Below, piece by piece: positions 1 through 17,417 of a stretch of DNA of 64,000 bases (position 1 is its first letter; each line of letters starts with the position of its first letter). This DNA comes from Mycolicibacterium boenickei (lineage in GTDB: Bacteria; Actinomycetota; Actinomycetes; Mycobacteriales; Mycobacteriaceae). Below the pieces are notes generated by a model, which saw only the letters and a program-made list of their open reading frames with translations, was not told the DNA's origin and ran no database searches. A program made the position numbers and the translations under genes. The stretch is taken from contig NZ_AP022579.1 in NCBI RefSeq assembly GCF_010731295.1, forward strand, positions 62,001-126,000. Reading direction: 5' to 3'.

Positions 1-1597
1 ATCGGGGTGCAGGTAGCCGGGTGTCGGGATCCACCGCCTTGGCCGTCTCGGAGAATCGCCGAGCGAAGTTTCGCCGGTTGGCCGCCTGGTGCGCTGCCCA
101 CAGCGGCGTCTTGTACACGATGTTTTCCCAAGCTTCGACGGCGTCATGGTTGAGCTGCAGGAAGATTCCTTCGCCGCGGTCTTCGGTCGCGGGCACCCAC
201 GTTGGTTTGCCATTGCGGGTCAATTTGACCAGCCGTCCGGGCAGGTCGTTCACCCGGTCCATTTCGTCGAGCCGCGTGAATCCGATGAAGGCGTTGACCT
301 TTTTCATCTGATTGACGGCGACCACGCGACTGATCTGCGGGGGAAGCGCGGAGCCGCGAGCCATGTCGGTCACCATCAGGCCGGTAGCGTTCTTCTGGGA
401 TGGGAACAGCGCGGGCTTCTGCAAGTACTGCCATTCAGGAATCAGGAGTTCCACCGGATCCCAGTCGTCTCGCTTCTTTTTGCGCTCCTCGTCGGACTCG
501 GGCGGCGTAAGCGCATCGGCGATTGCAGTCGAAAGACTTTCGTCAGAGACACCAGCCAGATCGATGCTCTTCATGTCTGCCATCGCACGGATCACGTCGA
601 GCTGTCCTGCAAACTGCTTCAGAGTGTCGGCACCTAGCTCCAGCCGAAGCAGGTCACCTAGGGCTTCGGCTTTCTCGGCGTCGGTGCGGGGCATGACAAT
701 GATCGATTGGGTGGAGGCGAACCACAGATTGGAGGCACCCATCATGATCAACGCCGGCCGCGCATCACATTCCTTGTCGAACGCGTTCAAATGCGGGTGA
801 CGCCCGCGGCAGGTCTGCGGCAGCTTGTCGCGGCCTACGGAGCCCTGTGCCTCTGCCATGCCGCGGGTAGCCCCACATTGTGTGCACGCGATCATTGAGC
901 CGACGCTCTTGCCAAGGTTGGCGTCGCGCATTTTCAGGTCGGGCCGCTCTGCTTTGGCGCACCGCCGGCCCCGATGCACCCACAGTTCGTACGGAAACTC
1001 GTCGACGTGACCGTTGGTGCACGTGAGCAGGTGCTGCGCAGGTACCGCGGGGCTCTCCCGACGCCCAGTCTTGGCACCACCACGCTGGGCGCCACGGCCC
1101 GGACAGCTCTTATGAGTGAATTGTGCCAGGTCAGGGCGGAAGGGATGAGTGTTGACGTAGCTGAATCTAGGTAACGGGCCGAGGTAGTCGCAGCCGGTGC
1201 ATCGTAGCCACTGCGGGAACACGCGGGCCGGGATGCCCAAGTCGGCACCCTCTTTAGCGAAGGAGTTCAGTTTCGGCTGCCATGGATAGGGCCGCAGCGC
1301 GTCCACCTGCGGACCAAGATGCATCCGAATCACGTTGAGCAGCCGAGGCTCGATGACCGCCGGAATCTTCTCGCGCCGTTTCCAGATGGGCTCCCAATCG
1401 TCTAGGCCGGCGGGCATGACCGAAAAGCCGGGCAAGTCCATGATCGCGCCCGGACCGTAGGTGTACAGCAGCGACGAGGGCCGTGACGAGCCCACCTTGG
1501 CGCGGTTCTTGACCACCGCGTCTTCGGCATCGGCAAGGGGGTCCAGCGCCTCACCCGGATCGTGCAGCATCACCTCTTCGGGCGTGGTGTCGGTCAT
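1..1597 (-). CDS. drmB: DISARM protein DrmB (DUF1998), C-terminus outside window
   Basis: The frame reading leftward from the ATG at 1597 is open to base 1, giving about 532 residues without a stop, so the C-terminal part lies outside. The N-terminus has the DrmB-like stretch SSLLYTYGPGAIMDLPG. There are paired-cysteine motifs (CTGC, CTQC) and a CTNGHVDEFPYELWVH segment, all as in the DUF1998 family. In DISARM, DrmB acts with the helicase DrmA against incoming phage DNA. The start overlaps the drmA stop (ATGA), so the two are probably translationally coupled. drmC (phospholipase D-like) usually follows and cannot be seen here. The assignment rests on both the motifs and the neighbours. Confidence 0.9.
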   Translation of the reverse strand, partial: MTDTTPEEVMLHDPGEALDPLADAEDAVVKNRAKVGSSRPSSLLYTYGPGAIMDLPGFSVMPAGLDDWEPIWKRREKIPAVIEPRLLNVIRMHLGPQVDALRPYPWQPKLNSFAKEGADLGIPARVFPQWLRCTGCDYLGPLPRFSYVNTHPFRPDLAQFTHKSCPGRGAQRGGAKTGRRESPAVPAQHLLTCTNGHVDEFPYELWVHRGRRCAKAERPDLKMRDANLGKSVGSMIACTQCGATRGMAEAQGSVGRDKLPQTCRGRHPHLNAFDKECDARPALIMMGASNLWFASTQSIIVMPRTDAEKAEALGDLLRLELGADTLKQFAGQLDVIRAMADMKSIDLAGVSDESLSTAIADALTPPESDEERKKKRDDWDPVELLIPEWQYLQKPALFPSQKNATGLMVTDMARGSALPPQISRVVAVNQMKKVNAFIGFTRLDEMDRVNDLPGRLVKLTRNGKPTWVPATEDRGEGIFLQLNHDAVEAWENIVYKTPLWAAHQAANRRNFARRFSETAKAVDPDTRLPAPR

Positions 1598-4500
1598 CAG
1601 TCCTCATCTCCCACTGGCAGGGTCCACCGTGGTGCACCATCGGGAACGTGCGCGAACAGGCGCTCGGGGATGGGACTGACGAGGATGTTGATCTCCGGCT
1701 GCACTTCCCGCATCGAGTTCGCAATGACAAACGGCGCCTGATTGGACGACCCGACACCGGCTTTGGCGTTCTCGGGACTCATCAACAACGGCAGGTACTT
1801 GTCTCCTTCCCCCGTGCGTTCGTAGACCAGCGTCCTGTGCATGTCGCTGGCGCGGCTGGCGCGGTCGACCCACCGGTCGATGCGATTCACCAAGCGGTCG
1901 CTGGCGTACTTCACCGCCACCTCATCTAGCGCCGCAGCCGAGATCCGCGCTTTCAGTCGTTCGGCGACACGCTCGACAACCTCCCGGTGTTCCTTGATTC
2001 TCCAGGCGCTGCGCTCTTCAGAGAGTCCGTCGTCCAGTGGCGCCTGCAGCACGCGGGCCACGCTGACCAATAGTCCATCAAGTCCGCGATCGAGCGACGT
2101 CGGCGAGTACGGCGTCACCGACAACGCTTCCACCTGGGAGTAGAATGTCTCGTGGTAATGGCGGAACTGCTCGTAATGCGCCAGGTCCCGGGGACGTGCC
2201 CAGTTACCCAGTGTCACAACCAAACCGGGGCGTTTGGAATCGCGGCCGACACGAGACGAGGCCTGGATGTACTCGGCGGTGTTCTTGGGCTGACCGACGA
2301 CGAGCATCAGGCCGAGCCTCTGCACGTCAACACCCACCTGCAGCATCGAGGTGGCCAACACCACGTCGAAGGGCGCTTCCTTGCGCGTGTGCACCTTCTT
2401 GCCGTCGCGCTGTGCTGCCATTCGCGCCTGGAAGGCTTCGGTGGTGTCATAGTCAGGGTCGAATTCCAATCCCAACCGGTCCAGTGTGCGGCCGATCTCC
2501 GACGAGGCGATCCGTGCGGTGAGCTCGCCGGTGTTCAGCAGTCCGAATGCGGCGCCGTGGCGGGGTGGAAATCCGGAGTCTTTGCGGGGGCGCTTGATTC
2601 GATTCTGAACATCATCGCCCATGTAGCGGGTCATGCCGGCAAGCTCGCGGGTGGCATTGAAGTACCCGACCAGTGTCAGGTAGGGGTCGGCAGCGATGCC
2701 GCTGCGGTCCAAAAGCAGCTGCCCGGCAGACAGCAATACTTCGGAGACGCGAATCTCAGCGCTGGCCAGGCGCACTCCCTGCGCGCTCACCCCGATATAC
2801 CTTCGGCCGGGTGTTGATTTGGTGATTGGGATTTCGCGGGAGAAGTAAGTGTCGGCGACATCGAGCACCTGCGGCGGGAAAATTTCCAGGCGCCGCCCGT
2901 AGAGGCCGCGCACCTGTTCCTGGGCATTGCGGACGGTGGCGGTGGACGCGACGATCAGCGGCCGCACCGGCTTCCCGTCGGCTTGCTCCCATGAGGCCAG
3001 TGTCTCCACCGCGACCTCGAACAGGCCAACGGCGGTGCCTAGGGCCCCGGTGATTAGGTGGAGCTCGTCCTGAATGATCAGGTCTGGCGGTCGCAGCCGG
3101 TTCACCGGATGGACGGTGGCCGCGGGATACCCGTCCACAGCCGGATGCGCAGTGGAGATGTTGCACGCCGCATAGTCGGGGTGGACGTAGCCGTGGCGAC
3201 CGCAGCGCCGCCCGACGTAGCCGAACAATGCCGCGGCTTCACCTTCGCGGGCGAGGCGGGCGAACTTATCGACGGTGGCGATGACGAAAGCCGGTGTCAG
3301 TCGGTAGATCTCCTCGTCCACGGTCAGAATCGGCAGGCCCTCACTGGCCTGCCCGCCTTTAGCGAACGGGCAACGCGCGAGGTCATCTCCGCAGTAGACA
3401 AACACGCGTCGGGCAGTCGCATCGGCTTTGACCTGCGCGGCAGCGATCGGTGTGCCACACCATGGGCAGCGCTGGACCTGGAGCACGGTTAGCCGATGCG
3501 AGCCGTATTCGTTGGCCTTCGTCAGCTGTTCGTCCGCTTCCTCGAAGCGTTTCGGGCTAACATCGGTACCGACCCATAGCCCAATACGGAACGGCTCACT
3601 GCCCCATGTGTTTTGGTCACCTTGGCGTAGCAGCTCGGCTGCGCACACCAATGCCGTGGCGCGTTGGAACTGCTGGGCAGTGAGCAGCCGCAGCGTGTAG
3701 CGCATCAGCACCGCAACGCCGTCGCGGCCGTCCAGCAGTCCGTCGGCCGATTCGACGAGCCCCTGGCGACGCCGGATCGCGAACGTGTAGGCAGCCAACC
3801 CAAGGTAGGCCTCGGTCTTTCCACCACCGGTCGGGAAGAACAGCAATTCCACTTGTGCCAAGTGCTCCGCGCTGCGCAGCTGCGTCTCCGGATTCGTCAA
3901 TGCTCCGAGTTGCATCAGGATGAACGCCAACTGGAAGGGCCGCCACGAAGCAGCCTTCGCACCAGCCTCGGCCACCATGCTCTGTGCATCGGCGATCGAT
4001 AAGACGGGATCTGAAGCGCGCAACGCAGCTACCTGAGAGGCGATGCGCTGATCGCGCATCACTGCATTCATGAACTGAAAGCAGCGAAGCGCTTCAGCGT
4101 CGGCCACGACGTGGTCGAGCCCGCCTTGTAGTCGCTTATGAGCCCGTCGGGCTTCCACCAGTGCCAGGTCGGCCGTATCGCGAAGATGAGACGGCAACTG
4201 CGCGATCGCTTCTTCTTGACTTTCGAGCCATTCTCCGTAGCCGGCGATGAGGGGCTGCAGTCCTGCGCCGACTTGTTTTGCGTTCGCGGATGCCAAGGCA
4301 TCCATGGATAGCAATGCGTTCTCGACGTCGCGCGCCTGGGTCTGCGGGGTTTCAGCGACGGGAAGCCAGGTGGTCCACACTGCAGCCGCCCGTCGCGATT
4401 CCTTTTTGGCAGTCCAGTCCACCGAGCAGGTCCGACCGATGGCGTACTCAAGTCTGTTGCGGTACTGCAGGTTTAAGCGTTGGACCTCGGCGTCGTGTTC

Positions 4501-5310
4501 CGGCACGTCTTGTTCAAGGACATCGCACACCGGAAGAAAGACCTCCGCTCCCCCGGCATCGATGTAAAGCTTGGTCTGGAACATCCACATCCCAATCGGG
4601 ATCGGCATCGGCGTCTCGCGGTCGTTGCACAAAGCGATTTCGACGAGCACCCGGTCGTACGTCGCGTCGTCGTAACGGTCCACCCGAAGACAGATGGTGT
4701 CGCGCAACTGGATGGTCGCCGTTTGGCCGGCATCGAGATCGGCGAGGCGGACGGTTCGGGGTTCTTCCACCGGGATGCGCTGGAAATGGCGGATCGGACG
4801 GCCTGCCTTGCTGACCTTATCGGTCTGCACCGACTCGTAAGTGCCCCACGACGCCGTAACAGTGAACGCCTCCAAGTCGGGCGGCACCTGGAACCGCAGA
4901 CCCATCGACGAGGGAATCATCAACCCCTGCTTGGGCGCCCGATCCTCACCGTCATCGTCGCTGGCATCAGCCTCGTCCTCGTCGGCGGCGAACGCCGGAA
5001 TGCCCCGCCCCTCTGCCGCGGCGCTTTCGTCGGCCTGAGCTTCAGCCAACTCGCCGCGCTCGGTCTCTACACCCGCGTCTGCGCTACCAGCTGTGACTCC
5101 AGTGAGGCGTACCGGCGCGATATGCCCGACCAGATACTGCGAGCGCGGGCTGAACGGCAACAACTCGTCGGGACCGTGAATCGGGCCGAGCAGCTCGCGC
5201 TCCAGAACGTCAACCAAGTTCTCTCGAACCGTGAACGACGAGCCGTCCGGCTCGAAGGTCAAGTCGTAGGTCGAGCCCGGTTCCTTCGCTTTCTCAGTGG
5301 CGCTGGTCAT
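1597..5310 (-). CDS. drmA: DISARM helicase DrmA
   Basis: 1237 residues, the usual size for DrmA. Helicase signatures occur in order: Walker A FPTGGGKTEAY near residue 493, DELH (motif II) near 747, a STAT motif near 790, and QASSRVGRDSKRPG (motif VI) near 1018. A Cys cluster (CPWCG, then YCGDDLARC) sits near residues 610-640 and may bind zinc. The first ~150 residues are acidic and of low complexity. In DISARM, DrmA and DrmB form the DNA-engaging core. The start shares one base with the drmMI stop (TAATG) and the stop overlaps drmB, so the gene sits inside a single coupled operon. Confidence 0.93.
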   Translation of the reverse strand: MTSATEKAKEPGSTYDLTFEPDGSSFTVRENLVDVLERELLGPIHGPDELLPFSPRSQYLVGHIAPVRLTGVTAGSADAGVETERGELAEAQADESAAAEGRGIPAFAADEDEADASDDDGEDRAPKQGLMIPSSMGLRFQVPPDLEAFTVTASWGTYESVQTDKVSKAGRPIRHFQRIPVEEPRTVRLADLDAGQTATIQLRDTICLRVDRYDDATYDRVLVEIALCNDRETPMPIPIGMWMFQTKLYIDAGGAEVFLPVCDVLEQDVPEHDAEVQRLNLQYRNRLEYAIGRTCSVDWTAKKESRRAAAVWTTWLPVAETPQTQARDVENALLSMDALASANAKQVGAGLQPLIAGYGEWLESQEEAIAQLPSHLRDTADLALVEARRAHKRLQGGLDHVVADAEALRCFQFMNAVMRDQRIASQVAALRASDPVLSIADAQSMVAEAGAKAASWRPFQLAFILMQLGALTNPETQLRSAEHLAQVELLFFPTGGGKTEAYLGLAAYTFAIRRRQGLVESADGLLDGRDGVAVLMRYTLRLLTAQQFQRATALVCAAELLRQGDQNTWGSEPFRIGLWVGTDVSPKRFEEADEQLTKANEYGSHRLTVLQVQRCPWCGTPIAAAQVKADATARRVFVYCGDDLARCPFAKGGQASEGLPILTVDEEIYRLTPAFVIATVDKFARLAREGEAAALFGYVGRRCGRHGYVHPDYAACNISTAHPAVDGYPAATVHPVNRLRPPDLIIQDELHLITGALGTAVGLFEVAVETLASWEQADGKPVRPLIVASTATVRNAQEQVRGLYGRRLEIFPPQVLDVADTYFSREIPITKSTPGRRYIGVSAQGVRLASAEIRVSEVLLSAGQLLLDRSGIAADPYLTLVGYFNATRELAGMTRYMGDDVQNRIKRPRKDSGFPPRHGAAFGLLNTGELTARIASSEIGRTLDRLGLEFDPDYDTTEAFQARMAAQRDGKKVHTRKEAPFDVVLATSMLQVGVDVQRLGLMLVVGQPKNTAEYIQASSRVGRDSKRPGLVVTLGNWARPRDLAHYEQFRHYHETFYSQVEALSVTPYSPTSLDRGLDGLLVSVARVLQAPLDDGLSEERSAWRIKEHREVVERVAERLKARISAAALDEVAVKYASDRLVNRIDRWVDRASRASDMHRTLVYERTGEGDKYLPLLMSPENAKAGVGSSNQAPFVIANSMREVQPEINILVSPIPERLFAHVPDGAPRWTLPVGDED

Positions 5311-8300
5311 TACAGCAGTGTCCCCTGCTCGTCTGGTGCGCTCGTACCGCGACGGCCTTTGCTTTTCGTTTGCGGTGTCTGCTTTGCTTCCTCGGCGGCC
5401 CTGCGATGGTTCTCCTCCAACAGCCGGTCAAGAATCTCCACCCGCGCTGCGGGACTCACCGTCCAGCGCTGAATCTTTCGATAACTGTGAAAACCATGGT
5501 CAAGCCGGACATCCGACCACCCGTACGCATCCATAACAGCGGAGTCAAGTTCCACCTGGATAGCTCGCATCCGTGCAATCTCGGGATCAGCGCCATCGGT
5601 AACCTGCGGAGAGTTAACGAAGTTGTAGAGACGCGTCAAGCCTAGGTGCCGGCCTTCCATAATCCCGCGTCGTTCCGCGTCCATCAATTCCCCGACTTCC
5701 AGCAACCGGTTGGAATCGATTGGCCTAGGGAATGTTTCGAACACATCGGATAATGAGTAATTGACGTCCGCGCGCATTGTTGATCCATACTTCGTTGCCC
5801 AAAGTTGGTGAATGCTCGAGGAGAGCACCGCCTGGTCGCAGCGCGAGTTAGTCGCAAATACACCTAGCTTATTTGCGAAAACTTGGTTAGTCGGCACGCG
5901 GATCGGCATCAGAGTATTGCTGACAAGCGCGATCACCAACACCTCGTCAAGATTGGCGATCGCTCGCCGCATCTCTGGCCGCGGCCGGATGAACTGCCAC
6001 CAGTACTCTCGTGCGCGGGGGTCGTTGTTTCTTTGACGGTCAGGTTTCACCGCATCTAACACTCGGGCGAACGGAAGACGGTAAGGCTCAGCGGCTTCTA
6101 AACTGCGGCCATCGAAATCAATGACCCAACGGGAGGCCGAACAATCCGGACGGGTGTTTAGATCCTCACCATTCAGAAACGGAAAAAGCACTTCGGAATT
6201 GCGCGAGTCCGCCGCAATCCACGCCCGCGCCTCCGTGGGTTCAAGAAGGAAACCGAGGCCCAGAATGTTGCAGCCTTGGAATGCGGTGTCCGTATTCTCA
6301 GCAAGTCGAACAGGTGGTCCATCGAGGCGGCCACCCGACTCTAGCAACGTGGTAATGCGTCCGACCGGTTCGTCGTCGCAGATGCGAACCACGTGATCAC
6401 TCACCTTCCCTGCTGTCCCCCAAACGGCGGCGAATTCGAGGTTGGCGCTGGCAACGGGCCATGACCTACTTTGGATGGCACGGGTGATGGTGAGACCTGC
6501 GTCGACCATTCTGTCGAGCCCGACTATGCGGGTGTCACCCTGGGCAATGGTATTCGTGGCGATCAACCCAAGATTACCGTGAGGCGAGAGCAAGTCCTGG
6601 GTGCGCAAGAAGAAGTAGGCCACTTGGTCGGCACTGCCCTTGACCCCGCCAGCGAGTACATTGACGAACCAGTCACGGATGTTCGTTCCCATTGCACCGG
6701 TCAGCTTTTGGCCTCCGAGAAATGGCGGATTCCCGACTATGGCGTCGAACCCGCCACGCTCTAGGATCACGTCAGGCGCTTCGATCACCCAATGGTTTGG
6801 CTGCCAGCGCGAGTAATCAGTCGGCACTGTCGGGGTGAGACCGCTGTCAATAATGCCTTCGAGCATGGTGGAATCTGGTTCACCGGATTCGGGGTGGGCG
6901 GCTTTGACAGCGATACGCAAGGTCTCGTAAGCCTCGTCGAGCGGCTTGCTCGGCTTCCCGCCTACCCTCAATCCGGCGGCGACCACACCGTCGGCAATCT
7001 TGCGTAAAGATGCCGTCGCGTAGCGCAATTGAGCGAGCTGCCGGCGTTTGGCCGCGCTGTTGCGGGCTGGATTGTTCTCGATGACTTCGGATGCCAGTTG
7101 ACGGCGCAGATCACCGGCTTTGCTAAGGATGGTGTCGATATCGACGTCGAAGATGTCGAACATCTCGCCCGGCGGTACACGTTTCGGATCGATATGTAGC
7201 TTACGGAGTTGCTCCAGGCTGGTAATTCCAAGCAGAGAGTTACCAAGAAAAATTTTATCGTCGACGAACGAGAACGGCAGGTCACGGTCCAGGGACACCA
7301 GCCACAGGGAGAGCTTGCACATTTCAACGGCCATGTCGTTGATGTCGGCACCATAGAGGCAGTTTGCGACGACTTCACGGATTGCCCGACGGTGCAGGTC
7401 GCTGCGTTGGGCGTTGTCGGAGTCTTCGGCTGACCATGCTTCAACCACGCGGTCTGCCAAGTAGCTGGCGGCCGAAACGAGGAAAGCCCCTGAGCCGCAG
7501 GCAATGTCGGCGACCTTGAGGCTCAACAGGTCATCAGACGACTTCAGTTTCCACTGGGATTCGTCAGCGGTCTGATACGGGCCCGGTGCGTAGCACAGGG
7601 GTTGCAAGGCATGCAGGACGACTTCACGCGCCAGCGATTTCGGGGTGTAGTGCGCGCCCGCGTTCTTGCGCGAGGGCGTCTCCTTGACCATCAACCCACC
7701 GGCGAGCACCACAAACGGGCGACCCCGCAAATCTTGACGGATGACGCCAAGCCAGGGCAGTACGCGTTCGCGCAGCTTAGGATCGTCACCCACCGCTTGC
7801 ACCAAGCCGCTTATCACGCCCAGCTCCGCCTTGGCGTCGATGCCTTTTACGATCGCTCCCGCTGATTGGGGTTTCGCCGACGGTTGGTCGCTTTCGATGT
7901 GTGCGCGAATTGCGTCAGCCAGCTTCTTCGGCGCAGCGTTAGCCGCCGCAAGCCGCTCCAGCTCGGCCAGCGAGATCTCAGGCTCCTCGCCGCGGGCACC
8001 CTGCAACCCGAGATAGGTCTCATCCACTGTGACGGCGGTGTAGCCGAGCAGGCCCTCGTAGATGTAACCAATCTGTTCGACGTCAATGTCTCGGAATGAG
8101 ATTCGCCGTACTTCGTTCTTTTTGAGGACGGCCTGCTGAACCGAGCGCAAGGCGTGCAACATTACCCGGTCCGATACGGCAACGGCCAGGGTCCCATGGG
8201 GGGTGGGTGCAGTAAGGAATGGAAAGCGCTCTGGGTCAAACAGCGAGCCGCCGTATGCGGGGACCCGCATGTTCTCGAAAGAAGCGCCACCGTAGAGCGC

Positions 8301-9383
8301 CTGGCTGGTCGCGAGCAGTCGATGCCACGTGAGCGAGGTCGCGTCGAGGGCTTCTTCACTCTCCTCGGCCTCGCGGGCTTGCAAGCGGTCTAGTTCGCGA
8401 GAGATTCCGTAGCCCTGCTCAAACAGCTCTCCTGATGGCAGTAGCCCGCGCTCTTCGGCGAAGAGCAAGAAGACGATTCGCATCATGATCGTCACCGCGG
8501 CTTCGTAGCTTTGGTGAGTGTCAGCAGGCAGCGGGTTGGGTTCGCCGCGTTGTTGGGCATCGCGTGCCGATTCAGAGAACGACTGGATGAGCAGTTCGAC
8601 AGCCCGCCGAACCTGCGCGCCGAGGGCTTCGGTGATTTCTTCGGCGGCGGCAACGGATTCCTCGAAAAGTACCGAGAGCCGCTCGTCTGCCTTGCCGCCG
8701 ATGATGTGCTGACGTGAGATCAGCGCAAAGAATGCGTCACGGGTACGGGGCTCCTCCACCCAGGTCAGCGCGTCCACCACACCCGAGGCGGTCATGGCGC
8801 CGGCGCGTGCACACACCAGCGCCCACCAGCGACCGTCGGTCACGATGCCAATCGGGATGCCGTTGTCGCGCAGCAGCGCTTCCATCCGGTCGATCGGGGT
8901 GGCCGCCCACAGGTCACTGGGGACCTGGCGCAATGAATCGACCGGTTCGATCATCGACACCAGGGCACCGATAGCGCCGTCGGGGTCCAGCAGGGCTGCC
9001 TCGGCGCCGACGGTGACCGCGCGGTTGGGTGACTGAGCCGTGATGCCGGCGACGGGTCCCCAGGACAGGGATTCGGCCCAGCCGACGACGTCGCGCAGTA
9101 CGGTTTCGACCCATTTGTCGCGGGCGATGCGGTACGCGTCATCGATCGTGCCGTCGTCGCCGGCGGCGCGATCTGCTGTCTCCCATGCGGCTTCGAAGTC
9201 CTTGCGGGCGTACAGCAGTGCTTCTTTGCGGGTGTCATCCAAGGCCGGTATGCCCTGCGGCCATACCCGCTTGAGTGGTGCGATCGCTAGGAACGGGCCG
9301 TCTGTGTCGACGAGTTCGAGCCAGGCGCGGTGCAGCTCGGAAACGTTGGGTGTCGAACGCTGCCGGGGTGTGCGGGGTGCCAT
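5310..9383 (-). CDS. drmMI: DISARM adenine-specific DNA methyltransferase DrmMI
   Basis: 1357 residues. A class I SAM-dependent N6-adenine methylase is indicated by AGAHYTPKSLAREV (motif X), DIACGSGAFLVSAASYLAD near residue 632 (motif I) and VGNPPF near 886 (motif IV). The architecture resembles the large Type IIL/BREX-like methylases with long N- and C-terminal extensions. It should methylate host DNA so that DISARM can tell self from phage; the target is unknown. The probable target-recognition part, after about residue 900, is richer in A+T than its surroundings (5701-5760 counts 45% G+C). The start shares one base with the drmD stop (TGATG). Confidence 0.92.
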   Translation of the reverse strand: MAPRTPRQRSTPNVSELHRAWLELVDTDGPFLAIAPLKRVWPQGIPALDDTRKEALLYARKDFEAAWETADRAAGDDGTIDDAYRIARDKWVETVLRDVVGWAESLSWGPVAGITAQSPNRAVTVGAEAALLDPDGAIGALVSMIEPVDSLRQVPSDLWAATPIDRMEALLRDNGIPIGIVTDGRWWALVCARAGAMTASGVVDALTWVEEPRTRDAFFALISRQHIIGGKADERLSVLFEESVAAAEEITEALGAQVRRAVELLIQSFSESARDAQQRGEPNPLPADTHQSYEAAVTIMMRIVFLLFAEERGLLPSGELFEQGYGISRELDRLQAREAEESEEALDATSLTWHRLLATSQALYGGASFENMRVPAYGGSLFDPERFPFLTAPTPHGTLAVAVSDRVMLHALRSVQQAVLKKNEVRRISFRDIDVEQIGYIYEGLLGYTAVTVDETYLGLQGARGEEPEISLAELERLAAANAAPKKLADAIRAHIESDQPSAKPQSAGAIVKGIDAKAELGVISGLVQAVGDDPKLRERVLPWLGVIRQDLRGRPFVVLAGGLMVKETPSRKNAGAHYTPKSLAREVVLHALQPLCYAPGPYQTADESQWKLKSSDDLLSLKVADIACGSGAFLVSAASYLADRVVEAWSAEDSDNAQRSDLHRRAIREVVANCLYGADINDMAVEMCKLSLWLVSLDRDLPFSFVDDKIFLGNSLLGITSLEQLRKLHIDPKRVPPGEMFDIFDVDIDTILSKAGDLRRQLASEVIENNPARNSAAKRRQLAQLRYATASLRKIADGVVAAGLRVGGKPSKPLDEAYETLRIAVKAAHPESGEPDSTMLEGIIDSGLTPTVPTDYSRWQPNHWVIEAPDVILERGGFDAIVGNPPFLGGQKLTGAMGTNIRDWFVNVLAGGVKGSADQVAYFFLRTQDLLSPHGNLGLIATNTIAQGDTRIVGLDRMVDAGLTITRAIQSRSWPVASANLEFAAVWGTAGKVSDHVVRICDDEPVGRITTLLESGGRLDGPPVRLAENTDTAFQGCNILGLGFLLEPTEARAWIAADSRNSEVLFPFLNGEDLNTRPDCSASRWVIDFDGRSLEAAEPYRLPFARVLDAVKPDRQRNNDPRAREYWWQFIRPRPEMRRAIANLDEVLVIALVSNTLMPIRVPTNQVFANKLGVFATNSRCDQAVLSSSIHQLWATKYGSTMRADVNYSLSDVFETFPRPIDSNRLLEVGELMDAERRGIMEGRHLGLTRLYNFVNSPQVTDGADPEIARMRAIQVELDSAVMDAYGWSDVRLDHGFHSYRKIQRWTVSPAARVEILDRLLEENHRRAAEEAKQTPQTKSKGRRGTSAPDEQGTLL

Positions 9384-12300
9384 CAGCGCAGCCCTCCTTT
9401 CGCGTCCTCGGGTGTGAGGGCGAAGACCACCGCAGCGGCAGTGGTGTGGGGTTTGACGTCGGCGTAGCGGTCGGTGATGGCCGCGATCTCGCGGGCCTCC
9501 TCATCGTCGAGTTCATCGAGACGGCGCTGCATCGAGTCGATGTCGCGGCGCCACTGCTTCTGCTGGTCGTCGGCCCAGAGCATGGCTTGGGCTTCGGCTT
9601 CCTTGCTACGCAATAGATCCAGCGATTCGCCCAGATTGGCCCGGAACGCTGCGAAGATGTCGCGGGCCCGTTGAATATCGGACGCCCGGCGTTTGTCTAG
9701 TTGCTCCAGTACGCGGGTGTGCCGGCGGTCGGCGCGAGCGTGCATCGACTCCTCCAAGCGCGCCCTTAACGGTGCATCCGTGGCGTTCCAGATATCACAC
9801 AGGTCGTCGCGTACTCGGCGGCTGGCCAGGGCGAGATGGTCGCCGTCGAGGGCATGATCGAGGGCGTGTTCGGCTTTCTCCTCGGCCATAGCGCGCCGGC
9901 CCTTTAGCCGCACACCGACGAGGAACACTTCCTCGTGCAACCGCACCCCGCCCCGACCGACGAGCACCATGCGGGTCACGGCAGCCACGAACGACTCAGC
10001 CATATCGTCGATCACCGCTGCGGTGACACGGTTGAGGGTGGAATCCACACTCCACAGCGAGCGGCGCAGTAGCCGTTGCGCTTTCTGCACGATCGGATGT
10101 CCGAGGTGCACGTACACCAGATCGGCCCGTCCTTCAGCGGCAGTCGGGTCGAACGTAATTGGCCGTAGCACATCAGGTTTCAGTCGGGTAGCCAAGCCTT
10201 TCAAGGTGCCTTGCCATGCGGGACTCAACGGGGGCATCTCGAACACGTCGGCGTCGGTGTCGGCGTCGCCGACCGGCTCCAACGGAAGTTGATGGTTGAT
10301 CCGCAATGCTGTGTCAACCACGCGACGCAGGTTCTGCGGTTCCAGATGCAGATCGGCGCGCGACGAGTCGTATCCGCGCTCCAACTCGGTGAGTCGCGTG
10401 TTGAGTTCGATTCCGCCGGCCAGCGCTTCCTGGATCACCTTGTTGCCGTCGATCCCCTTAGCTTTACGCTTGGCCGGTGCGCGGCGGGCGAAGTGCTCTT
10501 GGATCTCGTCACCGATCACCTGGTTGGCTGATCCCAGGTCCACCTCGACCTGGGCGATCTTCTTAGCGATGCGCGCCATGAAGTTCGCGTCGGCGGCGTA
10601 AGTGGAGGACTTGTCGTCGGGCACGAAATGAAACACTTCGGGCGTTTCGGCCTGCCCGTAGCGGTCGATGCGGCCAATCCGCTGTTCAAGCCGCGACGGG
10701 TTGAACGGGATGTCGAAGTTCACCAGCCGGTGGCAGTGGGTTTGTAGGTCGATGCCTTCGCCTGCGGCATCGGTGGCCAGCAGCACCCGCACCGGTTCCT
10801 CCGTCGGGTCCGCCGTGAACTGCGATCGGATGTATTCCCGGTCCTCGGGGGGTGTCGCGCCTTCAATGACAGCCAGGCGGTCTGCGTAGCCGCGCTGTAC
10901 CAGCACCCGCTGTAGCCAGCCGAGTGTGTGCGCGTATTCGGTGAACACCACGACCCGCTCGTTGGACCAGTGGGTGCCGTCGGGCCGGCACACTGCATCC
11001 AGGAAAGTGAGCAACCGCTCCAGTCGTGAATCGGGTCGGCCTTCGTAGCTCAAGCCCCAGTCGGCGAGCGTCTGCAGCTGACCGGGCTCGGCAGCGCTCA
11101 GCGGATCGGACGCCTTAGACTCCCGCAGCCGCTCGGCCTCATCGTGCTCCCACAGACCTTCTTCCTCGTCGGCCTGGCCTTCGCCGAAGATGTCGTCGTA
11201 CTCGTCGTCGCGCAGGCCGCGCCCAGCTCGCGTGTCGCGGTAGTGGCTGATCGTCATCCCGAAGGCGAACGGGCTGGACAGGAACCGCTTCTTGAGCAGC
11301 ATGGTCACGATGTCGCCGCCCGGTTTCGTGCCATTCTGCTTGGCGCTGCGGGTAACGATCTCATCGAGCAGGGAGAACATCTCCTGTTCGCTGTCCTCGG
11401 GCGTGAAGTCGAGGATGTTTACCTGGCGATCTTTGAATCCTTTGCCTTTGAGATCGCGCTTGAGTCGGCGCACCGTCACGTCCTTGAGTGCGGTGGCGTC
11501 TAGCAACGCGCCGCGAGAGAACCGGCGCGGGTCGATCATCTCCATCAGCGCGGTGAACGATTCCGGGTAGCCGTTGTGCGGCGTCGCGCTCAAGAACAGG
11601 CGGTGCTCGCATGTCTCGGCGAGCTGGCGAACAGCGACGGTCCGCTGGGTGTCCACTGAATAGCCGCGCCCGCCAGCGATGGTCGAGGGGCTCGACGGCG
11701 CGACATGGTGAGCCTCATCGACGATGAGCATGTCGAAGGCGAACCTTTTTCCTAGCTTCGGGTTTTTGGCCTGGGCGTAGACGTCGCGCAGCAGACGCTG
11801 GCAACGCACCTGCGGAAGCCAGGCCATGGACACGATCACCCGTGGGTATAGCTGGAAGGGGTTGGCATGCAGGCCGTGGGTGCGACGAACGTCAGACATC
11901 AGCTCGCTGTTGACGATGACGAATTGCAGGCCAAACTTGTCCCGCATCTCGTCTTGCCATTTCAGCGCCAAGCTCGGCGGGCACACGATCACCGCGGTAC
12001 GGGCACGATGCCGTAGAAAGAGTTCCTGCACGACCAGGCCTGCCTCGATGGTCTTGCCCAAGCCGACGTCGTCGGCAAGCAGGAGGTTTGTCCGCGGGCT
12101 GGTCAGTGCGCGGCGCAGTGGTTCGAGTTGGTAGGCCTCCACGGTGACCCCCGACCAGAAGGGCGCCTGGTAGCGGTTCGGATCTGCCGAGGTTACCGCG
12201 CCCCATCGCATCGCGTCGATGAAGCCGGCCAAGGTGACGGGATCGTCGAAACCTTCGGGGTTGATGTGCTCGGGTAGTCCCTGCGGTGGCGTGACCGTTT

Positions 12301-12931
12301 TACCGACCTCGAGCTCCCAAATCACTGACAGCTGCTCTCCAAGACGATCTTCGTCGAGCGACTGCAGGTCGACAACGTGATTGAGCTTCGCGGCAGCATC
12401 GTCAGCGGGGCTGAGCGGCAGACCCTGCGCCTGGACGTTGGCGACCGCCCAAGTCGAGCCGCGGACCTCTACAACCTGGCCGGGTTCGGGCAAGGGCGGC
12501 GCAACGACAGACACAGGTGATCCTCCGGTAGGTGGGGCGAGCCGATCAGTATCGCTGTTCGCACCGACGACCGCGCGGATGGTCTCCTCAGACACTCCGA
12601 AATGTTCGGCGGATTGTTTGACGGCATGCGCTGCAGCACTTTGTCTGCGATTGGCATCGACTGCCGAGGTCGCAGCGCTGAAGTCCCGTCGGATCTTGTT
12701 TCGCTGGCCTGACGTCAGTAGATCCTCGGGCAGTGCTGCTGGCAGATCGTTGTGGACCAGGGACTCGATGGTGTCGTAGGAGATGCCGTACTTTGCTTCG
12801 AGCTGCGCGCAGGTGTTACGCATGGCCCATTCGATGCCATGCTCGTCGATCGCCCCTTGGACGGCTCGACGAATTGTCGACCGTTGTCCCGGCGACAGAT
12901 GGTCAGCCTCTAGCGCGGATGGATCCCCCAC
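9383..12931 (-). CDS. drmD: DISARM SNF2-family helicase DrmD
   Basis: 1182 residues and the first gene of the DISARM operon, which marks class 1. The SNF2 motifs are DDVGLGKTIEAGLV near residue 289 (Walker A), VDEAHH near 405 (motif II), FLSATPHNGYP (motif III), FTEYAHTLGWL, ATDAAGEGIDLQ and RIGRIDRYGQ near 755 (motif VI). A charged, coiled-coil-like C-terminal tail of about 200 residues follows. The chosen start is a GTG at 12931; I see no strong Shine-Dalgarno before it, so a nearby start remains possible. The promoter region is shared with the divergent gene beginning at 13005. Confidence 0.92.
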   Translation of the reverse strand: MGDPSALEADHLSPGQRSTIRRAVQGAIDEHGIEWAMRNTCAQLEAKYGISYDTIESLVHNDLPAALPEDLLTSGQRNKIRRDFSAATSAVDANRRQSAAAHAVKQSAEHFGVSEETIRAVVGANSDTDRLAPPTGGSPVSVVAPPLPEPGQVVEVRGSTWAVANVQAQGLPLSPADDAAAKLNHVVDLQSLDEDRLGEQLSVIWELEVGKTVTPPQGLPEHINPEGFDDPVTLAGFIDAMRWGAVTSADPNRYQAPFWSGVTVEAYQLEPLRRALTSPRTNLLLADDVGLGKTIEAGLVVQELFLRHRARTAVIVCPPSLALKWQDEMRDKFGLQFVIVNSELMSDVRRTHGLHANPFQLYPRVIVSMAWLPQVRCQRLLRDVYAQAKNPKLGKRFAFDMLIVDEAHHVAPSSPSTIAGGRGYSVDTQRTVAVRQLAETCEHRLFLSATPHNGYPESFTALMEMIDPRRFSRGALLDATALKDVTVRRLKRDLKGKGFKDRQVNILDFTPEDSEQEMFSLLDEIVTRSAKQNGTKPGGDIVTMLLKKRFLSSPFAFGMTISHYRDTRAGRGLRDDEYDDIFGEGQADEEEGLWEHDEAERLRESKASDPLSAAEPGQLQTLADWGLSYEGRPDSRLERLLTFLDAVCRPDGTHWSNERVVVFTEYAHTLGWLQRVLVQRGYADRLAVIEGATPPEDREYIRSQFTADPTEEPVRVLLATDAAGEGIDLQTHCHRLVNFDIPFNPSRLEQRIGRIDRYGQAETPEVFHFVPDDKSSTYAADANFMARIAKKIAQVEVDLGSANQVIGDEIQEHFARRAPAKRKAKGIDGNKVIQEALAGGIELNTRLTELERGYDSSRADLHLEPQNLRRVVDTALRINHQLPLEPVGDADTDADVFEMPPLSPAWQGTLKGLATRLKPDVLRPITFDPTAAEGRADLVYVHLGHPIVQKAQRLLRRSLWSVDSTLNRVTAAVIDDMAESFVAAVTRMVLVGRGGVRLHEEVFLVGVRLKGRRAMAEEKAEHALDHALDGDHLALASRRVRDDLCDIWNATDAPLRARLEESMHARADRRHTRVLEQLDKRRASDIQRARDIFAAFRANLGESLDLLRSKEAEAQAMLWADDQQKQWRRDIDSMQRRLDELDDEEAREIAAITDRYADVKPHTTAAAVVFALTPEDAKGGLR

Positions 12932-12970
12932 GGATCATCACGGTAGTTGGGCCTCCACCACATGTCCGGG

Positions 12971-13013
12971 TTTCCACACCGTCCCCGCAGGAGCATTTTG
13001 ACGAGTGTGGAAA
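12971..13013. promoter_or_regulatory. Inverted repeat in the DISARM divergent promoter
   Basis: TTTCCACAC (12971-12979) and GTGTGGAAA (13005-13013) form a perfect 9 bp inverted repeat with a 25 bp spacer. It lies in the only intergenic gap between drmD and the divergent metallopeptidase-HicA gene, and its right arm covers that gene's GTG start. The layout suggests an operator controlling one or both directions. No regulator gene is visible nearby, so the binding protein is unknown; one of the two divergent products could be autoregulatory. Confidence 0.5.
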
Positions 13014-14162
13014 TATTCGCATGTGGCTGACACTCTCTCACTTCCTGAAGTAGTCGACACCCTTGTTGAGATGGACCTTGTCGACCTGGATAACGAGGGT
13101 CCATGGCCCGGCGACCCAGAAGACTCCGATGTGTACGAACCCGACTGGACGCAGGTCCACCCAGCCGACTCCGACATCGGCGTGCCGCTTGACTGGGGGC
13201 ACGGGCGGTCGACCTTCTATGACGAAATCCAGCGGCGCGCAAGCGCGGGTTTCACGGTTCCTCCCCCGGACGTGCTGGACGCCTTAGCGTGGTACACACC
13301 GATTCATTATTTCGGCCTTGGCTCGGCGATCTACATTCGTGAGTCAGCCGTCTTCGACGTCGCCGGCGCAATCCTCAATCGATTGCCGAGGCCTGAGCGC
13401 GAGGTGCCCGAGAACGTCGACGGGGCTTCGCGCGCAGCACTGTCGGTGCTCTACCTACACGAGGCGTACCACCACAAGATCGAATCGCTCGCGATCCGAT
13501 TCGAGGTTGTGGAGCGCACCCGTCGCTACCTCCCGTACTCGAAGTCGGTCTACATCCCACTCATCGAGCAAGGATCTGATGGCGTACTCGAAGAGGCACT
13601 TGCGTGTGCGGAGATGTACCGCCGCTTCAAGACTGAACAGCTCTACCGCCGAGGCGTGCCGAAGATTGTCCGGGACGCCACACTGGCAATGCTGCCGGAG
13701 TGGTTCCGGACCCTTCCGCCCAGCTACCGCGAAGCGTGCCGATATCTCCGCAACCCAACGTTCGACGACGCGCAACGAATTCTGATGAGCCAAGTTCAGG
13801 AAGGTGCGGCCGAACCCAAGCGCGCGGCCATCGAGTGGAACCTGACGCCGCACATGTCCCGCGGATTGTTTAACTGCCAAACCATTACCCACGTACTTGT
13901 TCCGAAAGGCCAGACGCCGATCCTGCCCTGGATCGGCCTCACTCCTGCACTCCCCTCAATAAGCAGCAGAAAGGCCATCCGATATCTGGAAGATCAAGGG
14001 TGGAAAGTGGACCCAGGCCGCGGCAAGGGATCGCACGTGCGACTCAAACTCATTGGAAAGCAACCGCTTACGATCCCCGTGAACCGAGAGTCACTATCTC
14101 CTCCTGTTTTGAAGTCCGTCGCGAACGCGCTGGGCATTCGGCTCGCTGATCTGGAGTTCTAG
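13005..14162 (+). CDS. HEXXH metallopeptidase-like protein with C-terminal HicA-like domain
   Basis: 385 residues, not a family I can name as a whole. The middle carries an HEAYHH zinc-protease-type motif (His152, Glu153, His156), followed about 40 residues later by EEALA (Glu196/197), the arrangement of a gluzincin site with a downstream Glu ligand. Residues ~317-385 look like a HicA mRNA-interferase fold: SSRKAIRYLEDQGW, then GKGSHVRLK with His344 at the position of the HicA catalytic His, then TIPVNRESLSPPVLKSVANA. No HicB antitoxin gene is adjacent. The GTG at 13005 has AGGAG 11 bases upstream; a GTG at 13023 is the alternative. Thirteen bases separate it from the next gene, so they are probably co-transcribed. 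Function is inferred only. Confidence 0.72.
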   Translation: MWKYSHVADTLSLPEVVDTLVEMDLVDLDNEGPWPGDPEDSDVYEPDWTQVHPADSDIGVPLDWGHGRSTFYDEIQRRASAGFTVPPPDVLDALAWYTPIHYFGLGSAIYIRESAVFDVAGAILNRLPRPEREVPENVDGASRAALSVLYLHEAYHHKIESLAIRFEVVERTRRYLPYSKSVYIPLIEQGSDGVLEEALACAEMYRRFKTEQLYRRGVPKIVRDATLAMLPEWFRTLPPSYREACRYLRNPTFDDAQRILMSQVQEGAAEPKRAAIEWNLTPHMSRGLFNCQTITHVLVPKGQTPILPWIGLTPALPSISSRKAIRYLEDQGWKVDPGRGKGSHVRLKLIGKQPLTIPVNRESLSPPVLKSVANALGIRLADLEF

Positions 14163-14183
14163 CGGTGAAGAAACGTGCCGCCA

Positions 14184-15248
14184 ATGACTAAGCCGTCCCC
14201 AGCAACCGCGTTGGCCGGGACGCCAGGCACCCGAACGATTCAGATCGCATGCGACGAATCCGGTTCTGAGGGCGAGAATCTGATCGAAGGCAGCTCACGG
14301 ATCTTCGCCCATGGCAGCACAGACCTCGACCCAGGTACCGCATCTCAGCTAATCGATGAACTTCGGGAGGCCGTGAAATTCAAGGGCCTTGAACTGAAAT
14401 CAACGACGCTGCTACAGAATGCCTCTCGACGGGCCGCGCTACTGAATACGCTCACGCCAGGCGGACCCCTCTCGGGCCGTGCGAAGTTTCTGGTGATCGA
14501 CAAGTGGTACATGGCGGCGGCCAAGGTAATCGACCTGGTGATCGAGGAGGATGCCTACGCGAAGGGCATCGACATCTACGGTACCGGGGAGGCCTATCGG
14601 ATGGCGCAGGTGCTGATTCAGGAAGGGCCCCGCGCGTTCGGCGAGAGGCGTATGCAAAAGCTGCTCGGCGACTTCGTATCGTTTGTGCGTCGCAAACAGC
14701 GGGGAGGCGCGAAAACGACTGAGGCTGAGTTGCTTCAGACGATCGATGATCTCCGACTTAGGAACAACCGCCGCAGTGTTACCGCCATCATGCAACGGCT
14801 GTGGGAGGGTAGGCATTACCTAGCGGGATACGGGCCGGACGCCCCCGCAACTAGCATGGGAACGCTGGAACCGATCGTGCCCGCGATCGTCAGTACGGCC
14901 AAAGACTGGCATCAAGTACATCGCATCCCCATTGAGATCGTTCATGATCGCCACGCGGCGTTGACTCCCGCTGCGGTCAAAGACATCTTGGCGGTATCGA
15001 CTGTTAGATTTCCCGGCATGGGCATCCCGCCGCCGATAGCGTCGCTTCAGCAGGTGGATTCGCGTACTGACGCCCGCGTACAAGTGGCCGACCTTGTCGC
15101 AGGGGTAGGCGCGTGGGCTGCTCGCAGCGCCCTCGGCGGGACGCTGCACCCGGAGGAGGCGGACCTCATCCGCGATTTCGTGGTGACCGACTCAATGTGG
15201 GCCGACGTGCCGAGTTGGATGCAACTGTATGGACGGACTCTGCGGTGA
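14184..15248 (+). CDS. DUF3800 domain protein
   Basis: The N-terminal QIACDESGSEGE matches the DESG signature that opens DUF3800, a family with a suspected RNase H-like fold that is frequent in mobile and defence loci. A later acidic patch (QVDSRTDARVQVADLVAGV) is also typical of the family's C-terminal half. The ATG at 14184 fits a purine-rich GAAGAA about 10 bases upstream better than the GTG at 14175 does. It follows the metallopeptidase-HicA gene closely and probably forms a bicistron with it. Catalytic activity is not established from sequence. Confidence 0.75.
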   Translation: MTKPSPATALAGTPGTRTIQIACDESGSEGENLIEGSSRIFAHGSTDLDPGTASQLIDELREAVKFKGLELKSTTLLQNASRRAALLNTLTPGGPLSGRAKFLVIDKWYMAAAKVIDLVIEEDAYAKGIDIYGTGEAYRMAQVLIQEGPRAFGERRMQKLLGDFVSFVRRKQRGGAKTTEAELLQTIDDLRLRNNRRSVTAIMQRLWEGRHYLAGYGPDAPATSMGTLEPIVPAIVSTAKDWHQVHRIPIEIVHDRHAALTPAAVKDILAVSTVRFPGMGIPPPIASLQQVDSRTDARVQVADLVAGVGAWAARSALGGTLHPEEADLIRDFVVTDSMWADVPSWMQLYGRTLR

Positions 15249-15302
15249 AATCATCACCCCCCTTACAGTGCAGCGTTGGCTGCCAATGGCCGCTACCGCA
15301 AC

Positions 15303-16724
15303 CTACCAACTGGCCTTCGCGTAATCCTTCAAGAAGCACCCATACAGATCCTCGCCCAGTTCCCCGCGCACGATCGGGTCATACACGCGCGCAGCACCAT
15401 CCACCAGATCCAGCGGCGCGTGGAAACCTTCTTCGGCCAGCCGCAGCTTCGTCGGGTGCGGACGCTCATCGGTGATCCACCCGGTGTCGACGGCAGTCAT
15501 GAGAATGCCGTCCTGCTCCAGCATCTCCCCGGAACTGGTGCGGGTCAGCATGTTCAGCGCGGCCTTGGCCATGTTGGTGTGCGGATGCCCAGGCCCCTTG
15601 TAGCCGCGGCTGAACTGGCCCTCCATCGCCGACACGTTCACCACGTACTTGCGCCGGGCCGGTGACGCGGCCAGCGCCGGGCGCAGCCGGCTCACCAGAA
15701 TGAACGGCGCGGTCTGGTTGCACAGCTGCACTTCGAGCAGCTCCATCGCGTCGACCTCGTGCACGCGCTGGGTCCAGCTGTTCACTGACGCGGTATCGGG
15801 CAACAGCCCACCCGCATCGATGGCGATCCCGGCGGAGATCCGCTCCGGCGAGGCGCTGCGCGCGGTCAGCGCCAGCTCGGTCAGCGCATGTGGCGCCGGA
15901 TGCTCGCCGAGGCTGCCGGCCAGGGCATGCGGATGCGCGTCACTGACATGGTCGAAGGTGACCACGTCCACCAGAGCCGGCGGCGGGGTGCGCTCGGCCT
16001 CCACCAGCGCGGCATACGAGCCGGGCGGGCGGCGCACCGTCTGCGCCGCGTTGTTGATCAGGATGTCCAGCGGCCCCTGCGCGGCGACCTCATCGGCCAG
16101 GGCCACCACCTGGGCCGGGTCCCGCAGGTCGATCCCCACCACCCGCAGCCGGTGCAACCAGTCGGCACTGTCCTCCATCGCGGCGAAGCGGCGCACCGCG
16201 TCATTGGGGAACCGGGTGGTGATCGTGGTGTGCGCGCCGTCGCGCAGCAGCCGCAGCGCGATGTACATGCCGATCTTGGCGCGCCCGCCGGTGAGCAGGG
16301 CCCGGCGCCCGGTCAGGTCCGTGCGGGCATCGCGCTTGGCCCGGTTGATCGCGGCGCAGTCCGGACAAAGCTGGTGGTAGAAGGCGTCGACGACGGTGTG
16401 GTGGTTCTTGCAGATGTAGCAGGCCCGCGAGCGCAGCAGCGTGCCCGCGCTGGCCCCGACCGCGGTGGACACCAGCGGCAGACCCTGGGTCTCGTCGTCG
16501 ATCCGTCCCGGCGCACCGGTGGCGGTGGCAGCGATGACGGCGCGATCCGCGGCCGCAACCCGATCGCGCGCCGCGGCCCGGCGCACCTTCTTCAACTCCT
16601 TGAACATCTTCGCGGTGGCCTGGCGCACAGCAACGGCGTCGGGGTGCTCGGGAGGCAGCTTGTGCACCTCGGACAGCACCCGCAGGCACGTGCTGAGCTG
16701 GTCAGGGTCGATCGCGTTCACCAT
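15303..16724 (-). CDS. SDR-family oxidoreductase with N-terminal zinc-ribbon-like segment
   Basis: The Rossmann core begins at ALLTGGRAKIGMYIALRLL and continues with DILINNAAQTVRR, both typical of short-chain dehydrogenase/reductases. Before it lies a Cys cluster, CYICKNHHTVV...CPDC, which looks like a zinc ribbon, and a Lys/Arg-rich helix. The protein is about 473 residues, long for an SDR because of this N-terminal addition and an insertion rich in His and Ala. NAD(P) specificity and substrate are unknown. The ATG at 16724 is chosen because the further 18 upstream codons look non-coding. It is convergent with the DUF3800 gene. Confidence 0.8.
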   Translation of the reverse strand: MVNAIDPDQLSTCLRVLSEVHKLPPEHPDAVAVRQATAKMFKELKKVRRAAARDRVAAADRAVIAATATGAPGRIDDETQGLPLVSTAVGASAGTLLRSRACYICKNHHTVVDAFYHQLCPDCAAINRAKRDARTDLTGRRALLTGGRAKIGMYIALRLLRDGAHTTITTRFPNDAVRRFAAMEDSADWLHRLRVVGIDLRDPAQVVALADEVAAQGPLDILINNAAQTVRRPPGSYAALVEAERTPPPALVDVVTFDHVSDAHPHALAGSLGEHPAPHALTELALTARSASPERISAGIAIDAGGLLPDTASVNSWTQRVHEVDAMELLEVQLCNQTAPFILVSRLRPALAASPARRKYVVNVSAMEGQFSRGYKGPGHPHTNMAKAALNMLTRTSSGEMLEQDGILMTAVDTGWITDERPHPTKLRLAEEGFHAPLDLVDGAARVYDPIVRGELGEDLYGCFLKDYAKASW

Positions 16725-16796: not shown

Positions 16797-17237
16797 TCAG
16801 TCGTAGATGACGTCCAACCCGCGCCGCCGAAGGTCGGCCAAGCCGTCGCGCATGCTCTGCAGCTGCTCGGGTGAATGCCCGACCCAGTCGGTGATCTCGC
16901 CGACGATCTTCACCGGCTCACGGGTTCGGTAGGACCGAGTCGGATTCCCGGGCAGCTTCTTGTCGGTCACGTTCGGGTCGTCCTCGATCGCCCCTTCGGG
17001 TTCGACGATGTAAATGCGGCCGCGCCCCTCGCCGACAGCCATCTCGGCACCCCACACCGCGGCATCCAAGGTGCGGGTCACGTACACGTGGTTCATGATC
17101 CGGCCGGCTTGGTAATTCGACTCGCGTCCGGGCACCAGGCGGTCCCCCACCGCCAGGTCGGCCTTGGTGCCGTGCAGCAGCGCACCCGACTCGTGCACCT
17201 CGAACGGTATCGGCGTATTCGTCACAACATCCCCCAT
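16797..17237 (-). CDS. arr: Rifampin ADP-ribosyltransferase Arr
   Basis: 146 residues, the normal length of Arr. Landmarks are FEVHESGALLHGTKADL, RESNYQAGRIMNHVYVT, RGRIYIVEPEG, DDPNVTDKKLPGNPTRSYR and a C-terminal LDVIYD, all highly conserved in mycobacterial Arr. The enzyme uses NAD+ to ADP-ribosylate the ansa-bridge hydroxyl of rifamycins in the cytoplasm and so inactivates them. The ATG at 17237 gives the family N-terminus; upstream in-frame codons do not resemble it. It appears monocistronic, as it usually is in environmental mycobacteria. Confidence 0.95.
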   Translation of the reverse strand: MGDVVTNTPIPFEVHESGALLHGTKADLAVGDRLVPGRESNYQAGRIMNHVYVTRTLDAAVWGAEMAVGEGRGRIYIVEPEGAIEDDPNVTDKKLPGNPTRSYRTREPVKIVGEITDWVGHSPEQLQSMRDGLADLRRRGLDVIYD

Positions 17238-17417
17238 CTCGTCACGGACCGGAAGATTGTGCAGCACGTCAGGGGCCTTGCCGCAAGCCCCACCCCCGGC
17301 CGTATAGTGAGAGTGGGAACGGATCGAAAGTCTTTCGCGCCCAGCCAATCCGATTGAGTCCACCCGTCTCGGAACGGGTCGCATCGATGGCGCCTGCGCA
17401 GCCGGGCCGATGGTCGC

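Follow-up and report, generated by a model that had tools for sequence, protein, structure and literature searches.

The window analysed here, a stretch of 64,000 nucleotides of Mycolicibacterium boenickei (contig NZ_AP022579.1, positions 62,001 to 126,000), contains a class 1 DISARM locus and, diverging from its drmD gene, a gene that fuses a peptidase-like N-terminal head to a C-terminal HicA toxin domain and is followed by a DUF3800 gene on the same strand (Table 1). The fusion gene, which is the subject of this report, encodes a two-domain protein of 379-385 amino acids, unlike the small monodomain HicA toxins. Its HicA domain scores above the curated cut-off of 27 bits for PF07927, which is the sole Pfam match of the window protein, and a profile of the fusion matches HicA chains in the PDB (best E 8.4e-7). 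The preliminary description of this DNA had placed an HEXXH motif, a downstream Glu and a HicA-like domain with its catalytic His in one protein, divergent from drmD and followed by a DUF3800 gene, all of which was borne out by the open reading frames (ORFs), the family matches and the motif positions. The start of the span it gave, 12932, is merely the first base after drmD.

Translation of the fusion could begin at either of two GTG codons. The upstream one, at 13005, gives an ORF of 385 amino acids (13005-14162), from which the residue numbers used throughout are counted. The downstream one, at 13023, is the likely start, since all four relatives in the alignment have a GTG at the same place (five loci including the window) and it yields 379 amino acids, the commonest length among the close fusion homologues listed. 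Alignment of the drmD-fusion promoter regions revealed no clear operator.

Table 1. Features of the fusion gene and its neighbours in the window (residues numbered from GTG 13005)
Feature	Position	Strand	Evidence or remark
Probable drmB, runs off the window	2..1597	-	ORF; named from position and similarity among loci, no HMM (hidden Markov model)
drmA (short form), DISARM helicase	1597..5310	-	NF038325 1377.9 bits, cut-off 950
drmMI, DISARM class 1 methyltransferase	5310..9383	-	PADLOC DrmMI 1635 bits
drmD, DISARM class 1 SNF2-like helicase	9383..12931	-	NF038317 1240.7 bits, cut-off 610; PADLOC DrmD
Divergent intergenic region, drmD/fusion	12932..13022	.	ORF map and alignment among loci
Peptidase-like/HicA fusion gene	13023..14162	+	379 amino acids from GTG 13023; PF07927 match
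Conserved N-terminal motif DALAWYTPIHYFG, Asp92 to Gly104	13278..13316	+	Homologue alignment
HEXXH motif HEAYH, residues 152-156	13458..13472	+	Kept in 163/163 full-length homologues
Glu196-Glu197 in 'EEALA', candidate third metal ligand	13590..13595	+	Each kept in 162/163; ligand role inferred
HicA domain (PF07927), residues 322-378	13968..14138	+	E 2e-8, 34.6 bits
Catalytic-type His344 of the HicA domain (GSH motif)	14034-14036	+	Kept in 127/127 HicA-class members
DUF3800 gene, GTG 14175 (ATG 14184 possible)	14175..15248	+	PF12686 E 1.5e-5; 12 nucleotides after the fusion

The fusion belongs to a small and apparently undescribed family whose members, judged from their domain matches, carry one of two unrelated toxin types. 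A protein search with the fusion gave 189 homologues at E<=0.001 among 8000 candidates scored, 120 of which were listed, and the lists of three protein searches hold at least 195 distinct family proteins, all matching a profile of the N-terminal head built in this analysis. Of the 195 listed proteins, 137 end in a HicA domain, 44 in a HigB-like domain and 14 in neither; most of these 14 look truncated by eye. Among 83 family members, PF07927 was matched in 67 at E<=5, and 9 are of the HigB type.

Conservation of the head was counted over 163 sequences of at least 355 amino acids, including the window protein and five viral-contig members. His152, Glu153 and His156 are kept in all of them, Tyr97 and Tyr241 are likewise invariant, and His101 is kept in 160. 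A protein of the fusion's composition would be expected to hold about 0.018 HEXXH motifs by chance, a level that the observed conservation exceeds. An HEXXH motif with EEALA following 40 residues on is a pattern typical of gluzincin-type sites. His344, which the preliminary description had paired with the HEXXH motif, proved equally constant among HicA-bearing members. The first 300 residues of the fusion have no match in Pfam, NCBIfam or PADLOC, and PADLOC returned for the whole protein only a chance-level hit to PDC-M06A (E 0.047). Neither PF06114 nor any metallopeptidase family is among the Pfam families matched by the 83 members. Membership of the head in the M78 (ImmA/IrrE) family was rejected for lack of sequence kinship in a comparison with four M78 sequences, though the HEXXH motif and downstream Glu are present.

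The same head precedes two different C-terminal domains. A profile from the HicA-type alignment (A1) retrieved, with E 1.3e-16, a protein of genome G492 that carries no HicA domain; in the reverse direction, a profile of the HigB branch (A2) matched the head of the window protein with E 2.7e-17. Comparison of the HicA-type and HigB-type profiles with each other gave 99.4% probability (E 2.8e-21; 225 columns aligned). At E<=5, 7 of 26 HigB-branch members match PF05015 (HigB-like_toxin) in their C-terminal domain, with weak scores (best E 7.4e-4). Against the PDB, the best match of this C-terminal domain is a chain of a 40 kDa insecticidal toxin (E 8e-5), followed by cytochrome b562 variants from E 0.044, at chance level, and YoeB chains at E 0.17. 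Arg, His and Trp columns are kept in all 14 aligned HigB-type ends, and two members (P0146 and P0171) bear the source annotation 'plasmid maintenance system killer protein'. The HigB/RelE label of this end is likely but not strong.

In a FastTree phylogeny of 126 non-redundant heads, the 36 HigB-type and 90 HicA-type tips were split without exception (support 0.867), a clean separation that points to one toxin exchange and not to repeated shuffling. Evolution would on this evidence have combined the head with two unrelated ends of ribonuclease (RNase) type. Searches of the phylum gave further matches to the ends alone: A1 matched 26 of 396 genomes, 24 of which, beyond the window's own and G492, match in the HicA end only, and A2 matched 11 of 396, namely the window's own, G492, a truncated match in G414 (L100) that was left out of the evidence, and 8 with matches in the HigB end only. 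The C-terminal part of A2 alone matches short ORFs in these 8 other genomes with E from 5e-6 to 9e-4, and one such standalone ORF (L108) is followed by an ORF that by eye is HigA-like. A class-level search around G492 matched 1 of 66 genomes, G492 itself.

A separate antitoxin was sought in the genome and among the neighbours. A search of the whole genome (6.59 Mb) for the HicB family PF15919 gave no match at E<=1, other HicB families not having been searched, which agrees with the earlier statement that no HicB is present; the adjacent or fused HicB of a HicAB module is accordingly lacking for the fusion as far as PF15919 is concerned. In a control search, 11 of 14 genomes had a PF15919 match at E<=1 and 3 of 14 exceeded the cut-off. 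The ORFs lying up to 2.5 kb from the fusion at 17 loci were compared all against all, duplicate loci being counted once (L004 for L012/L047; the window for L001, L009, L057, L083 and L099), and no neighbour gene was common to the DISARM, phage and other groups of loci. Common neighbours occurred only within the group of DISARM loci (drmD, ORFs overlapping drmD, and DUF3800 in two loci) and within a group of three phage contigs. This absence of a common neighbour, together with that of PF15919, fits a self-contained protein without proving it.

Two local arrangements were also seen. The three phage contigs L126-L128 have in common two small ORFs (73-74 and 83-104 amino acids) flanking the fusion, which are possible regulators or ordinary phage genes. 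At L003, and at this locus only, a gene of XRE helix-turn-helix type (11302-12015) with a weakly MbcA/ParS-like C-terminus (E 0.004) lies about 160 nucleotides downstream of the fusion.

An intact fusion diverges from drmD at five loci (the window, L002, L003, G006 and G020). In a sample of 198 genomes of the genus, drmD exceeds its family cut-off in 11 and the full-length fusion occurs in 4, a count that excludes the matches in G034 (a fragment) and G039 (a sister-branch member). All four are among the 11 drmD genomes, against none of the 187 others (Fisher p 5e-6, relatedness ignored). The association is patchy at closer range: among the 8 genus genomes with a drmD at least 80% identical to that of the window, 3 have an intact adjoining fusion, 1 has a 34-residue remnant and 4 have none (G015, G037, G040 and G153). 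The drmD of G153 is the most similar to the window's (94%), yet this genome has no fusion, and in G189 an intact fusion and a drmD only 53% identical to the window's lie on different contigs. Because of this patchiness beside close drmD loci, we read the fusion as exchangeable cargo; mycobacterial DISARM seems to have, next to drmD, a slot whose cargo can be exchanged. A role as a DISARM subunit was rejected, half of the eight close drmD loci lacking the fusion and the fusion also occurring in other contexts. A reading of DISARM as its functional partner fails on the same loci, on the separate contigs of G189 and on the sister-branch or more distant members that lie beside other defence genes or in phage contigs.

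Several further arrangements were observed around these DISARM loci. In G034 (L045, L050), drmD is in two parts about 12 kb apart beside the 34-residue remnant, and the locus is apparently decaying. Other genes near drmD look alike by eye in G034, G037 and G153. They include a two-gene module (about 1255 and 540 amino acids; L087 8551-13937, L052 172-5591, L089 6864-14999), which recurs in G153 and G034, has related-looking ORFs in G037 by eye, and is a second candidate for cargo in the slot next to drmD. A further candidate defence cluster beside DISARM lies immediately upstream of the window (L048, G000:C1:45000-64999, 4306-15558), with a DrmD-like SNF2 helicase, a weakly GajB-like protein, PDC-S68 (PADLOC E 0) and a UvrD/NERD-like helicase; a DrmD-like helicase similar to that of L048 is present on the fusion contig of G189 (L096). 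Within the window, an ORF on the minus strand at 16797-17456 resembles by eye a rifampicin ADP-ribosyltransferase (Arr).

Other members of the family lie in different surroundings, and the gene content of their contigs places the family in defence islands and on phage contigs. In G039, the sister-branch member adjoins a helicase that matches DruE strongly (E 2e-184), and the member's own C-terminus ends early, by eye near transposase-like ORFs. At L125, the family member lies 140 nucleotides after type III restriction-modification genes (MTase_III E 4e-170, REase_III E 3e-14). These two settings and the five drmD loci bear out the defence surroundings that had been proposed. L109, L126, L127 and L128 are contigs that also bear terminase or portal genes, and the fusion is encoded there on the opposite strand from these. 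The members at L005-L008 are on short contigs of 4.8-21.6 kb: at L005 the fusion is downstream of two ORFs that we take to be sbcD/sbcC, at L007 it is beside a T5orf172/MUG113 gene, and at L008 it is split by ORFs that look transposase-like by eye. The window fusion and P0146 have no match in plasmids, the window fusion and the L109 member have none in INPHARED phages, and an origin of the gene from a plasmid or reference phage is accordingly unsupported. A scan of viral contigs with profile A1 gave 0 of 82 candidates, and one with profile A6 only L109 again.

The DruE-like helicase of G039 is accompanied by a protein of 1140 amino acids without a PADLOC or Pfam match (L046 11142-19192), and the two possibly form a Druantia-like system with an unrecognised partner.

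The DUF3800 gene had been paired with the fusion as a putative nuclease partner, but comparison of homologues did not support the two genes as a unit. The pair is found in the window and L002 only, among the 17 loci compared; DUF3800 homologues are present in 3 of the 198 genomes of the genus sample, and the window's own genome is the one of these three that has the fusion. An obligate pair was rejected on these counts, and we read DUF3800 as additional cargo that is separable from the fusion. Its four aligned relatives agree without exception at residues of the 'CDESG' and 'QxADxVAG' type, and a role as a nuclease-type partner is plausible. Overall, the sequence observation of the preliminary description is confirmed and its interpretation partly supported.

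We tentatively read the fusion as an mRNA interferase that is encoded by one gene, restrained by its peptidase part and spread as mobile defence cargo, and place the chance of this reading a little below even. The head, of about 300 residues, would be a metallopeptidase of zincin-like type, keeping the toxin domain inactive in the place of HicB and answering a cue from infection or from a competitor. Proteolysis of the head itself, or of a bound inhibitor, would free the RNase, which would cleave mRNA and stop growth, resulting in abortive infection or, where the gene is phage-borne, in superinfection exclusion. Beside DISARM, the fusion would be backup cargo in a common defence slot and no DISARM subunit, and it may amount to an immune weapon that is switchable and complete in itself. 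A wider proposal is possible but doubtful, namely that the family comprises undescribed single-gene immune effectors in which a metallopeptidase-like sensor head proteolytically controls a HicA or RelE/HigB RNase warhead with no separate antitoxin, the effectors being carried along by DISARM, Druantia-like and type III restriction-modification islands and by phages.

A number of results weigh against these readings, the first of them concerning the head. No Pfam family apart from HicA and HigB is matched by more than 3 of the 83 members (lowest E 0.0035, for Atrophin-1), the head profile finds no PDB chain with E better than 0.8, and hhalign comparison with M78, represented by an alignment of only 4 sequences, gave a probability of 0.2% and E 0.27. 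For the toxin ends, the scores behind the assignment to HigB/RelE are weak, and the case for calling the ends 'interchangeable' is also weak, since a single toxin swap is evident; the last protein search was seeded with both branches, and other C-terminal partners were perhaps missed. The HicB control is soft, few control genomes exceeding the PF15919 cut-off, and at L004 (the locus of G189) an intact fusion has by eye no defence gene as immediate neighbour.

The main rival to gating of the toxin reverses the roles of the two parts, making the peptidase the weapon and the toxin domain an aiming device: the HicA- or RelE-like domain would direct the HEXXH domain to RNA or to ribosomes, and a ribosome-bound or phage protein would be cleaved there. 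This is unlikely, though both C-terminal types have folds that act on RNA or ribosomes (the double-stranded RNA-binding domain of HicA; A-site binding by RelE, according to the part of PMC11980606 available to us) and the HEXXH motif is among the most conserved features of both branches. Pure targeting would not need catalytic-type residues in the toxin domains, yet these are kept in both (His344 and the Arg, His and Trp of the HigB-type ends).

A second rival makes the head a metal-binding, non-proteolytic domain that serves as a built-in antitoxin or ligand sensor. It draws on the head's want of convincing kinship to any peptidase and on the failure to find a PF15919 HicB in the genome, as a result of which the RNase may be restrained in cis. 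We consider it unlikely as well, and slightly the more so, because the HEXXH...EE pattern retains its two His and its two Glu in 162-163 of 163 sequences over two branches, which is probably more than a structural metal site usually needs.

Peptidase activity could alternatively act in trans, on a repressor or antitoxin whose cleavage would free the toxin domain, as in M78/ImmA-like systems. The COG2856 Zn-peptidases with Xre partners and RelE or PIN toxins offer a precedent, in the part of PMC2701414 covered, and the XRE-type gene at L003 could be such a partner. With no partner gene common to the 17 loci and a head that is not M78-like by sequence, this alternative appears improbable. It is very improbable that the fusion is an ordinary HicA toxin with a chance N-terminal extension, kept as an addiction module in islands that collect unrelated genes and hence beside defence genes by clustering: NCBI does label several close homologues 'type II toxin-antitoxin system HicA family toxin', but the extension is strictly conserved and also present on a different toxin end, and 181 of the 195 listed members bear one of the two toxins behind the head.

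Compared with known systems, the fusion resembles HicAB in its C-terminal HicA domain with a conserved GSH motif, and single-gene fused forms of HicA exist (classes 11-14; Gerdes 2024, PMC10865869, in the part available). That survey describes 14 HicA contexts, with fusion to HicB in classes 11-13 and to SMC in class 14; in the part covered, its contexts include no peptidase fusion, and the words protease, peptidase, metallo and zinc are absent from its main text. HicAB modules differ further in that the genome of the fusion holds no PF15919 HicB. The multidomain toxins of the RelE/ParE (BECR) group (Gerdes 2025, PMC11980606, likewise covered in part) share a RelE/HigB-like domain that ends a longer protein and is proposed to act in defence. 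The main text of that article uses 'peptidase' and 'metallo' 0 times and 'protease' 2 times, one of them on Lon-type proteases, and describes no peptidase fusion in the text covered; it leaves out many multidomain proteins, including those without an identified antitoxin.

Similar in logic are the zincin-like metallopeptidase domains of polyvalent proteins (PMC5512222, in the part available), in which a peptidase with HEXXH and a Glu-bearing helix is fused to BECR-fold RNases in phages, with autoproteolytic release proposed. Those proteins have multiple domains and are carried by phages and conjugative elements, whereas the fusion has about 380 amino acids, two domains and no convincing Pfam peptidase match. 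The M78/ImmA-IrrE peptidases (COG2856; PMC2701414, again in part) similarly tie a Zn-peptidase-type motif, HEXXH...ExxA, to an RNase toxin, but in them peptidase and toxin are encoded separately and come with an Xre domain or partner, and their sequence kinship to the head is undetectable. In class 1 DISARM, the core genes drmD, drmMI and drmA are adjacent to the fusion and divergent from it, while the fusion itself is no DISARM gene.

In the parts of the open-access literature covered, no fusion of a peptidase to HicA or RelE of this kind was found, and the published list of HicA contexts (PMC10865869, as far as covered) does not include the one described here. The gating logic considered here has precedents, as far as the covered parts of these sources describe them, in the COG2856 peptidases with Xre and RelE or PIN partners and in the zincin-BECR polyvalent proteins. 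The toxins of toxin-antitoxin systems are usually held by a labile partner protein, and a fused peptidase-like head in its place would, if the preferred reading is true, represent a different gating of an abortive-infection toxin.

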